This document shows, one piece after another, positions 14,395 through 18,185 of a DNA stretch of 64,000 nucleotides (positions are counted from its first letter, which is position 1; every line of letters starts with the position of its first letter). A program made the position numbers and the translations under genes. The stretch is from assembly GCF_024628865.1 (NCBI RefSeq), contig NZ_CP102384.1:321001-385000 (forward strand), written 5' to 3'. This stretch comes from Sphingopyxis sp. DBS4. Its GTDB lineage: Bacteria; Pseudomonadota; Alphaproteobacteria; Sphingomonadales; Sphingomonadaceae. A model generated the notes under the pieces. The model saw only the letters and a program-made list of their open reading frames with translations. It made no database searches and was not told where the DNA came from.

Positions 14395-15405
14395 ATGAAC
14401 GGCTGGATCATCCTCGACAAGCCCGTGGGGCTCGGCTCGACCCAGGCGGTCGGCGCGGTGAAGCGCGTCTGCCGCGAGGCGGGTCTCGGCAAGGTCAAGG
14501 TCGGCCACGGCGGAACGCTCGACCCGCTTGCTTCGGGGGTGTTGCCAATCGCGCTGGGGGAGGCGACCAAGCTCTGCGGCCGGATGCTCGATGCCAGCAA
14601 GACCTATGATTTCACCGTGGCGTTCGGGATGGAAACCGCCGGGCTGGACGCGGAGGGCGACGTCGTCGCCACGAGCGACGTGCGGCCGACGCTGGCGGAC
14701 ATCGAGGCGGTGCTGCCGCGCTTCACCGGCCCGATCGAACAGATTCCGCCCGCTTATTCGGCGATCAAGGTCGACGGGCAGCGGGCCTATGATCGCGCGC
14801 GCGCGGGCGAAGAGGTCGAGATGAAGGCGCGGAGGGTGACGATACACACGCTCGCGATCCTCCCCGGCACGGGGAGGGGGACCGCCGAAGGTGGTGGAGG
14901 GGCAGGCGAGGGTTCGCGCTTCGCCGATACGCGGTGCAAACCGTCCGTGCCCCTCTACCATGCTTCGCATGGTCCCCCTCCCCGTGCCGGGGAGGAACTG
15001 GATGCCATCACCCTCACCGCCCATGTCTCGAAGGGCACCTATATTCGCAGCCTCGCCCGCGACATTGCGCGTGCGGTCGGCACCGTCGGCCATGTCACCA
15101 TGCTCCACCGTACCAAAGCGGGGCCGTTCGACCTGTCCCAAGCGATTTCGCTGGACAAATTGAACGCTTTCGGTCAAGGGGCCGCGCAATCAGATGTCAT
15201 TCTGCCGCTCGAGGCGGGGCTGGTCGACATCCCGGCTCTGAACCTTTCCCCGGAAGCGGCAGGGGCGATCCGTCAGGGTCGCGTCTGGACCGGGGTAAGC
15301 ACGCACGACGGGCTCTATTGGGGACGCGATGCCGACAATCGGCCCGTCGCCCTGATCGAGGCTTTGGCGGGAACGCTGAAGGTCGTGCGGGGCTTCAATC
15401 TATAG
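14395..15405 (+). CDS. truB: tRNA pseudouridine(55) synthase TruB with in-frame palindromic insertion
   Basis: 336 residues. The N-terminus is canonical (GWIILDKPVGLGSTQAV), with the catalytic aspartate D43 in GHGGTLDPLASGVLPI and later motifs QIPPAYSAIKVDGQRAYDRAR and SKGTYIRSLARDIA. TruB makes pseudouridine-55 in the T-loop of tRNAs. Residues ~155-201 do not belong to the family: they are encoded by a ~137-bp palindromic repeat that keeps the frame open, between TIHTLAI and DAITLTAHVSKG. Removing them gives ~290 residues, the usual size. The catalytic residues are intact, so the enzyme may still work. Confidence 0.95.
   Translation: MNGWIILDKPVGLGSTQAVGAVKRVCREAGLGKVKVGHGGTLDPLASGVLPIALGEATKLCGRMLDASKTYDFTVAFGMETAGLDAEGDVVATSDVRPTLADIEAVLPRFTGPIEQIPPAYSAIKVDGQRAYDRARAGEEVEMKARRVTIHTLAILPGTGRGTAEGGGGAGEGSRFADTRCKPSVPLYHASHGPPPRAGEELDAITLTAHVSKGTYIRSLARDIARAVGTVGHVTMLHRTKAGPFDLSQAISLDKLNAFGQGAAQSDVILPLEAGLVDIPALNLSPEAAGAIRQGRVWTGVSTHDGLYWGRDADNRPVALIEALAGTLKVVRGFNL
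14859..14995. repeat. Palindromic repeat inserted inside truB
   Basis: The left arm 14859-14883 and right arm 14971-14995 are perfect 25-nt inverted repeats (CCTCCCCGGCACGGGGAGGG... and complement). Imperfect pairing continues inward (GAAGGTGGTGGAGGGGCA at the left, its near-complement ending about 14948 at the right), giving arms of about 46 nt and a ~43-nt loop. The insert codes for a Gly/Pro/Arg-rich peptide without homology to TruB. Confidence 0.88.
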
Positions 15406-15429: not shown

Positions 15430-15699
15430 ATGTCGATTACCGCCGAGCGCAAAGCCGAAGTCATCAGCGATAATGCCCGTGCCAAGGGCGACACCGGTTC
15501 GCCGGAAGTCCAGGTCGCGATCCTGACCGACCGCATCAACACGCTGACCGATCACTTCAAGGCGCACCACAAGGACAATCACAGCCGCCGCGGGCTGCTG
15601 ATGATGGTCAACAAGCGCCGCAGCCTGCTCGACTATCTTCGCAAGAAGGACGAGGGCCGCTATCAGGCACTCATCGCGAAGCTGGGTCTGCGCAAATAA
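15430..15699 (+). CDS. rpsO: 30S ribosomal protein S15
   Basis: 89 residues, full length, with the S15 hallmarks [37 protein letters not shown] and [13 protein letters not shown]. It binds the central domain of 16S rRNA early in 30S assembly. A GAGGA ribosome-binding site precedes the ATG. It lies 24 bp after truB and is followed by a rho-independent terminator, the conserved truB-rpsO-pnp order. Confidence 0.98.
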
Positions 15700-15890: not shown

Positions 15891-18185
15891 ATGTTTGACG
15901 TGAAAAAAGTATCGATCGAGTGGGGCGGTGAGACGCTCACTCTCGAAACGGGCAAGGTTGCCCGCCAGGCCGACGGCGCCGTGATGGCGACGCTGGGCGA
16001 AACGGTTGTCCTGTGCGCCGTGACCGCCGCCAAGTCGGTGAAGGACGGGCAGGACTTCTTCCCGCTCACCGTCCATTATCAGGAAAAATATTCGGCCGCC
16101 GGGCGCATCCCGGGCGGCTTCTTCAAGCGCGAACGCGGCGCGACCGAAAAGGAAACGCTGGTTTCCCGCCTGATCGACCGCCCGATCCGTCCGCTCTTCC
16201 CCGAAGGTTTCTACAACGAGATCAACGCCATTGCTCAGGTGCTGAGCTATGACGGCCATAACGAGCCCGACATCCTCGCGATGGTCGCGGCGTCGGCCGC
16301 GCTCACCATCTCGGGTGTGCCCTTCATGGGTCCGATCGGCGCCGCGCGCGTCGGTTACCTCAACGGCGAATATATCCTCAACCCGACCGACGAGCAGGTC
16401 GCCGAGGGCGACCTCGACCTGGTGGTCGCCGCAACCTACGACGCGGTGATGATGGTCGAATCCGAAGCGAACGAGCTGTCGGAAGAAGTCATGCTCGGCG
16501 CGGTGATGTTCGCGCACGACGCGTGCAAGGAAGTCGTCAAGGCGATCGTCAAGCTCGCCGAACAGGCCGCCAAGGACCCTTGGGAAATGGCTGCGTCGGA
16601 CGACAATGCCGCGATCAAGGACAAGCTCAAGAAGCTGATCGGCAAGGACATCGCCGCTGCCTACAAGCTGACCGACAAGTCGGCCCGCTCGAACGCGCTC
16701 AACGAGGCGCGCGCGAAGGCGAAGGAAAGCTTCGCTGCCGACGGCCTCAGCCCGCAGGAAGTCATGGCCGGCATCAAGCTGACCAAGAAGCTCGAAGCCG
16801 AAATCGTCCGCACCGCCATCCTCAAGGACGGCAAGCGCATCGACGGCCGCACGACCACGCAGATTCGTCCGATCGTCGCCGAAACGCACTTCCTGCCGCG
16901 CGCCCACGGTTCGGCGCTGTTCACTCGCGGCGAGACGCAGACGATCGCGACCTGCACCCTCGGCACCAAGGAAAGCGAGCAGATGATCGACGGTCTCAAC
17001 GGCCTGTCGTATCAGAATTTCATGCTCCACTATAACTTCCCGCCCTATTCGGTCGGCGAAGTCGGCCGCTTCGGCGCGCCGGGCCGCCGCGAAGTCGGCC
17101 ACGGCAAGCTCGCGTGGCGCGCGCTGCACCCCGTGCTGCCGACCAAGGACGACTTCCCCTACACGATCCGCCTGACCAGCGACATCACCGAGTCGAACGG
17201 CTCGTCGTCGATGGCGTCGGTGTGCGGCGGCTCGTTGGCGATGATGGACGCGGGCGTGCCGATCAAGCGCCCCGTCTCGGGCATCGCGATGGGCCTGATC
17301 CTCGAGGGCAAGGATTATGCGATCCTGTCGGACATCCTGGGCGACGAGGACCATCTCGGCGACATGGACTTCAAGGTCGCGGGGACGTCCGAAGGCATCA
17401 CCACGATGCAGATGGACATCAAGATCGCGGGCATCACGAAGGAAATCTTCGAGGCCGCGCTGACCCAGGCCAAGGAAGGCCGCGCGCACATCCTCGGCGA
17501 GATGGCCAAGGCGCTCGGCGAAACCCGCACCGAGCTGTCGGATTATGCGCCGCGCATCGAAACGATGCAGATCGACAAGTCGAAGATCCGCGATGTCATC
17601 GGCACCGGCGGCAAGGTAATCCGCGAGATCGTCGCGACCACCGGCGCCAAGGTCGACATTGATGACGAGGGCCTGATCAAGATTTCGTCGAGCGACCTCA
17701 GCCAGATCGAAGCGGCCCGAAAGTGGATCGCCGGGATCGTCGAGGAAGCCGAAGTCGGCAAGATTTATGACGGCAAGGTCGTCAATCTCGTCGATTTCGG
17801 GGCGTTCGTGAATTTCATGGGCGGCAAGGACGGTCTCGTCCATGTCAGCGAAATCGCCAACGAGCGCGTCGAAAAAGTGTCCGACGTCCTGAGCGAAGGC
17901 CAGGAAGTCAAGGTCAAGGTGCTCGAGATCGACCCGCGCGGCAAGGTCCGCCTGTCGATGCGCGTCGTCGATCAGGAAACCGGCGCCGAACTCGAAGACA
18001 CCCGCCCGCCGCGCGAACCGCGCGGTGATCGCGGCCCCCGCCGCGACGGCGGCGACCGCGGCCGCGGCGGCCGCGACCGTGGCCCCCGTCGCGACGGCGG
18101 TGATCGTGGCGATCGCGGTCCGCGCCGTGAGCGCAATGACGGTCCCGAAGATCAGGGCCATGTGCCCGACTTCCTGAAGGACTAA
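15891..18185 (+). CDS. pnp: Polyribonucleotide nucleotidyltransferase (PNPase)
   Basis: 764 residues: the first RNase PH domain (about 1-140), the all-helical domain, the second catalytic RNase PH domain (about 310-540, with [20 protein letters not shown]), a KH domain ([16 protein letters not shown]) and an S1 domain ([20 protein letters not shown]). It is the phosphorolytic 3'-5' exoribonuclease and a degradosome partner. The last ~55 residues are an Arg/Gly/Asp repeat region built from [18 protein letters not shown] units, a likely RNA- or partner-binding tail. Confidence 0.98.

Follow-up and report, generated by a model that had tools for sequence, protein, structure and literature searches.

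Rickettsia palindromic elements (RPEs) are palindromes of about 100-150 bp inserted in frame into genes of known function, and MITEs are non-autonomous copies that share their ends with a coding IS parent. The 'E.' and the 'S.' in the names E. lithoralis and S. alaskensis, both relevant here, we take to stand for Erythrobacter and Sphingopyxis, respectively. Passages of PMC3733652 report repetitive extragenic palindromes (REPs) within the gene for tRNA pseudouridine synthase B (truB) in S. maltophilia, E. lithoralis (as spelt there) and S. alaskensis, and recall RPE-1 within the same gene of R. conorii. The CGTC REPs are described in these passages as a CGTC tag plus a stem of 8-9 bp, and those of Alphaproteobacteria are reported without a dedicated transposase. 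As to nucleases, the Caulobacter protein VsrA possesses a DUF559 domain and belongs to the PD-(D/E)XK superfamily (passages of PMC12907096). The present analysis concerns a palindrome inside truB in a window of Sphingopyxis sp. DBS4 DNA (the whole stretch analysed, 64,000 nucleotides). An initial sequence-only reading of the window knew of no described equivalent in sphingomonads, a statement that must be withdrawn, since for both S. alaskensis and E. litoralis such repeats in truB are already in print (passages of PMC3733652). The named neighbours of the window's TruB are likewise from Sphingopyxis.

The truB gene of the window (Table 1) contains an in-frame palindrome within the size range of about 100-150 bp, in a gene of known function, as is characteristic of RPEs. 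The sequence-only reading had placed it at 14859..14995, which is right to within 1 nt, with arms of 25 nt; the arms are in fact 26 nt each, 100% complementary and 87 nt apart. Its view that the frame is kept, with about 47 residues (155-201) added to an intact enzyme, agrees with the open ORF and with the matches to PF01509, PF16198 and TIGR00431 (TruB), the latter covering residues 1-256. The best match in the PDB is 1sgv, whose chain proceeds from 158 to 162 where the window TruB goes from 158 to 200, leaving the solved TruB with about three residues at the insertion point, and it is plausible that an insert at a surface loop of TruB is tolerated. In RNA folding most of the segment 14858-14996 is paired (-125.2 kcal/mol, z -12.6), with 0 of 200 shuffles as stable. 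An 18-nt half-arm pattern, allowing up to 3 mismatches, has four matches in the window, all within the two arms, against 0.19 expected. The element begins with TCCTCCCC and terminates with GGGGAGGA, presenting neither a CGTC tag with an 8-9 bp stem nor a GTAG tag. No known RNA family of Rfam matches the window at gathering scores. The two downstream ORFs are presumably rpsO and pnp, judging from sequence and operon order.

Table 1. Coordinates of truB, its insert and neighbouring genes in the window, and of one gene border elsewhere in the same genome.
Feature	Position	Strand	Remarks
truB (tRNA pseudouridine-55 synthase)	14395..15405	+	336-aa ORF, open through insert
TruB N-terminal domain PF01509	14485..14862	+	residues 31-156
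In-frame palindromic insert, family A, ILPGTGRGTAEGGGGAGEGSRFADTRCKPSVPLYHASHGPPPRAGEE	14857..14997	+	residues 155-201, 47 codons
Insert left arm, TCCTCCCCGGCACGGGGAGGGGGACC	14858..14883	+	has small internal hairpin
Stretch beside right arm, GCAAACCGTCCGTGCCCCTC	14936..14955	+	near-identical GCAAACCGCCTGTGCCCCTC in the DUF559-bearing copy (by eye)
Insert right arm	14971..14996	+	exact reverse complement of left arm
TruB C-terminal domain PF16198	15046..15222	+	residues 218-276
rpsO (presumed), downstream neighbour	15430..15699	+	ORF; used for tree
pnp (presumed), downstream neighbour	15891..18185	+	ORF; first part used for tree
L143 site	G000:C1:1569843		stop-start gene border

The window's own genome was searched with the 154-base truB region, 40 of 53 candidates being scored and the two strands often representing one place. 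At least 29 matches were obtained, corresponding to at least 11 full-length short copies (the one in truB and the ten others, which the sequence-only reading had proposed to look for), one nuclease-bearing copy, whose two arms lie about 380 bases apart, and three weak partial ones. The view of the insert as an in-frame member of a dispersed palindrome family is thus supported. ORFs of at least 150 aa, 25 in number, run across nine of the ten short copies outside truB, and a Pfam scan of 20 of these 25 found no domain that spans the element. Where domains are present, the element precedes them, as in transporters, an undecaprenyl diphosphate synthase, two NADH-oxidoreductase chains, MacB/FtsX and a formyl transferase. 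The truB copy is the sole one found inside a conserved domain in this genome, at this extent of scanning. Across a sample of 80 Sphingopyxis-group genomes, the window's own (G000) included, a family-A match, which may represent a single arm, is present in 72; up to 10 candidates were scored per genome, and copy numbers are lower bounds. Long ORFs with a family-A translation also occur in other species (for example G064:C5:16254, G008:C31:597091, G052:C13:94667) and are possibly more in-frame insertions.

In the same genome, family-A-like arms enclose a DUF559 ORF (G000:C1:1608439-1608940; inverted-flank score 50). The encoded protein (P0121) matches PF04480 with 88.5 bits and PDB entry 3hrl, 'Endonuclease-Like Protein', with an E value of 2.6e-11; an identity as a defence gene was rejected, the PADLOC matches being weak (PDLC03210, 30.3 bits). 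A D..E-x-D-type core, which we take to be the PD-(D/E)XK core, is kept in 118 of 121 DUF559 proteins as judged by regular expression. The window element has its arms and arm-side sequence in common with this DUF559-bearing copy, including 18 of the 20 bases of the stretch beside the right arm. The reading frame is shared as well: an arm-encoded C-terminal tail like VPLHHPADGPPPRAGED is recognized by regular expression in 113 of the 120 listed DUF559-A homologues (of 2231 found), the tail being altered or cut in the remaining seven, and the translated TruB inserts close with very similar words, VPLYHASHGPPPRAGEE or VPLHHASHGPPPRTGEE, in the same frame, which is that of the 3' half of the TruB insert. 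In our view the truB palindrome is probably the non-autonomous version of a mobile palindromic element, the full form of which possesses a DUF559 nuclease gene. In that full form, a gene for a small PD-(D/E)XK/Vsr-like nuclease would lie between two inverted arms able to form hairpins, and the short copies would derive from full ones, not the reverse, by loss of the gene, keeping the arms and some adjoining sequence. The nuclease would act by cutting at hairpins or target DNA, and repair would then copy or move the element, with gene-less relatives mobilised in trans in the same way. Most copies would have landed at gene borders, and the TruB loop would be a coding place where an open frame could persist.

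The association of DUF559 genes with palindromes extends beyond this genome. A DUF559 match is present in 70 of the 80 genus genomes, and 60 of 70 genus DUF559 loci pass a flank test (an ungapped inverted-repeat match within 250 bases, scored +1/-2, with a score of at least 14), made up of 25 of the 30 best hits (a single one from each genome) and 35 of 40 additional loci; the control windows pass at 0/180, 1/178 and 2/459 (3/817 in all). When borders are re-extracted for the contig-end loci L144, L150 and L153, 27 of the 30 best hits pass, and with profile-based re-extraction 84 of 100 loci do (101 tried, class-wide ones included). The class-wide loci alone score 19 of 27 usable, with controls at 0/108. 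As the arms are self-complementary, a flank match means the same palindrome on both sides, inversion being demonstrated by the longer matches only. DUF559 protein distance and arm distance are correlated (Mantel r 0.83, n=68, score of at least 13; best of 2000 permutations 0.12), a correlation that simple linkage and shared ancestry would be expected to produce as well, and r is 0.48 among the 2118 pairs with a protein distance above 0.25. Nucleases and arms co-segregate; two pairs of DUF559 clades share one arm type. Family-A-like DNA is absent in 6 of 10 DUF559-free genomes versus 2 of 70 possessing DUF559 (Fisher p 1.8e-5, ignoring kinship), the other four DUF559-free genomes still having family-A-like matches (15 in G002). 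By eye, the TruB insert of G009, of family B, has the arms of the DUF559 clade of L266/L268.

Filled and empty sites were compared for two loci, L143 and L021, in 16 genomes each. The L143 site is empty in G042, G030 and G076, where the upstream stop nearly touches the downstream start codon. In G038, G044 and G052 it is occupied by a DUF559 gene whose product is 53-56% identical to that of L143 and 77-89% identical to the clade of L155, and in G064, G013 and G016 by one from a third clade, that of L139 (81-100% identity). Another stretch is found in six genomes (with one arm kept in G034), and G073 is unreadable across contigs. Depending on the species, one and the same border thus houses a DUF559 element from one of three clades, a different stretch, or no insertion at all. 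Likewise, the L021 site is empty in G053 and filled in G029, G076, G038 and G008; in G030 and G042 the nuclease gene is present, with a whole short family-A copy replacing the left arm, and in G016 a short copy is found beside a DUF559 just 38% identical to that of L021. Unrelated stretches are present in six genomes, and G048 and G052 are unreadable. The short family-A copies directly beside DUF559 genes (L420, L421 and L422, in G030, G042 and G016, respectively) look as if elements were nesting in or next to each other. No clean target-site duplication was found at the junctions of these filled and empty sites, and their pattern would fit either gain or loss. One could argue that the nuclease simply travels along, or that it is a Vsr-like repair enzyme picked up together with the repeats, and that the short copies spread by recombination or through another enzyme. 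Such an argument may invoke VsrA, tied to the DNA damage response and predicted to act in mismatch repair (passages of PMC12907096), as well as the three DUF559 clades at one site in different species, as exchange could give. We consider it unlikely, as near-identical short copies reside at several unrelated sites of one genome, and homologous recombination alone does not create these.

As to the TruB loop itself, it is readable in one ORF in 73 of the 80 genus genomes, and 49 of these 73 TruBs possess an in-frame insert of one of five repeat families (A in 11, B in 6, C in 3, D in 2 and E in 27), assigned by regular expression on the protein. Seven more loops seem to hold remnants of a family C, D or E insert or a rearranged version of one, and 17 are without a recognised insert, one of which (G045) has a hairpin of score 24; this loop (L136, CCTCCGCGTCTCCGCGCCTCCGCG) represents a sixth repeat type. 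Ungapped hairpin scores are 8-28 for A, 8-25 for B, 21-25 for C, 20 for D and 10-33 for E, compared to 5-20 for the remnants and, G045 excepted, 3-8 for the loops with no insert. Eight A inserts and one B insert are therefore not clearly palindromic by that test, and the families were called by protein words because in family A the ungapped hairpin is weak in many inserts of the A' type. Among 80 named loci, family A is also found in truB of two Erythrobacter (L236, L240), just before a loop shared by the group, in the same frame and within about one codon of the Sphingopyxis position; an Altererythrobacter truB (L235) has family D, and Sphingorhabdus has one more family, F. A tree was built for 86 loci from loop-free truB, rpsO and part of pnp, and on it the family labels (the label '-' including some remnants) need at least 32 changes, the least possible number being 6 and the shuffled mean 48.4; support is weak for 20 of the 83 inner branches, and truB alleles exchanged between species could contribute to the label changes. 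Sisters on the tree may have different families, one example being L169 (A) and L184 (B). In G064, a genome rich in family-A copies, truB (L099) is out of frame at the loop and has no recognisable insert, through either imprecise loss or an error of the draft assembly.

A role in RNA could be proposed for these hairpins, as immobile terminators or mRNA-stabilising structures around small genes, with the insert kept for the truB-rpsO-pnp transcript. The strong hairpin of the insert would suit such a role, as would the position of the other examined copies at or outside domain borders, and different families place a hairpin at this one point, which would make sense if it were the hairpin that counts. 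However, it would require unrelated families to arise repeatedly at one point, filled and empty sites exist, and the 17 of 73 TruBs without a recognised insert, together with the seven that look like remnants or rearranged copies, speak against a retained function, making this proposal quite improbable. On the mobile-element explanation, which as a whole we regard as likely, the loop after VT(I/V)xxL is a recurrent landing place for palindromes, where several unrelated families would come and go through insertion and partial in-frame deletion, an insert there being presumably tolerated rather than useful; the loop may also be a preferred target.

The other families point to a second nuclease. 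The TruB inserts of families C, E and F, in other species, have CGTC or TGTC ends, those of D being less clear, and arms of types C, D, E and F occur among GIY-YIG loci. Small Sphingopyxis GIY-YIG genes flanked by CGTC-type and related palindromes are represented by L346-L415. The flank test is passed by 61 of 67 genus GIY-YIG loci (22 of the 27 usable among 30 returned, and 39 of 40 hand-picked), with controls at 1/108, and class-wide by 11 of 22 usable loci, with controls at 1/88. Arm type tracks the kinship of the GIY-YIG proteins (r 0.63, n=45; best of 2000 permutations 0.13), and one of the genes, L411, ends in the arm-written ADPGSSPG. We would give an even chance to the broader proposal that many palindromes of sphingomonads and other Alphaproteobacteria are transposase-free mobile elements with a stand-alone nuclease as mobiliser, DUF559 serving the G/C-rich palindromes with two hairpins and GIY-YIG serving the REPs of CGTC type, with gene-less copies moved in trans and the TruB loop acting as a recorder. 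Ordinary REP biology, in which an HUH tyrosine transposase (RAYT) moves the palindromes and the DUF559 and GIY-YIG genes are accidental neighbours, has a precedent in REP-RAYT, the pairing described for GTAG REPs (passages of PMC3733652), and Y1_Tnp matches do occur in 15 of the 80 genus genomes. It appears very unlikely here, given the flank scores and kinship-linked arms of the nuclease loci and an arm that belongs to the nuclease reading frame. For this genome a RAYT was rejected as mobiliser, with 0 matches to Y1_Tnp/PF01797 (RAYT-type) at E <= 0.001.

The notion that sphingomonad TruB has had this segment from its ancestor as a functional part, maintained by purifying selection, for which one may cite the loop region of S. 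terrae, nearest to the window's among nine compared with 89.6% DNA identity (the flanks being about equally near to several species), merits almost no credence and was rejected, as loop length and repeat family vary between close species and the loop is bare, with 45-46 residues between anchors, in all 26 readable TruBs (29 loci) of other Alphaproteobacteria. The absence from relatives, which the sequence-only reading proposed to check, is observed both there and in the genus TruBs without a recognised insert (17/73). The two outcomes it had named as possible refutations do not overturn it.

With a mobile-looking repeat in truB and a nuclease-bearing relative of it in the same genome, nucleases may be what spreads repeats of this kind, and not an ordinary transposase. 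This offers a testable answer to an open published question, that of the mover of the alphaproteobacterial CGTC REPs, and suggests a biological role for two widespread and poorly understood groups, the DUF559 and the small GIY-YIG proteins. It also presents one loop of one conserved enzyme as entered in frame by several unrelated palindrome families, and as a place where nature has recorded how inserts enter proteins and decay there. While REPs in truB are already in print, a link between nuclease and palindrome was not found in the open-access literature, where no paper connecting DUF559 or GIY-YIG to such repeats was located (this being no proof of absence), 'GIY-YIG' never occurred together with 'repetitive extragenic palindromic', and no DUF559 paper with a title on repeats was found. 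The accessible portion of PMC12306157 has no occurrence of 'sphingo', 'rayt' or 'endonuclease'.

Among known systems, VsrA has the DUF559 domain in common with the nucleases described here, and 'palindrom' is absent from the main text of PMC12907096. As in MITEs, the inverted ends of the window element are also those of a coding element in the same genome; unlike in MITEs, no transposase and no target-site duplication were seen for the window element. The CGTC/GTAG REPs (Di Nocera 2013, passages of PMC3733652) are likewise short dispersed palindromes, mostly intergenic and sometimes in genes, truB included, whereas the window element is a longer, two-arm palindrome of a family with a nuclease-bearing member. 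The RPEs (Ogata 2002; Claverie and Ogata 2003, both as cited in passages of PMC3733652), likened here by description, are also in-frame palindromes in functional proteins with truB as a target, while in the present case the truB copy alone was found inside a conserved domain. Finally, the REP-RAYT modules (REPtrons, passages of PMC3733652) resemble the elements described here in having a gene for a DNA-processing enzyme flanked by palindromes, many gene-less copies, and a kinship of the enzyme that tracks the repeat type, but the enzyme here is a DUF559 or GIY-YIG nuclease and not an HUH transposase.
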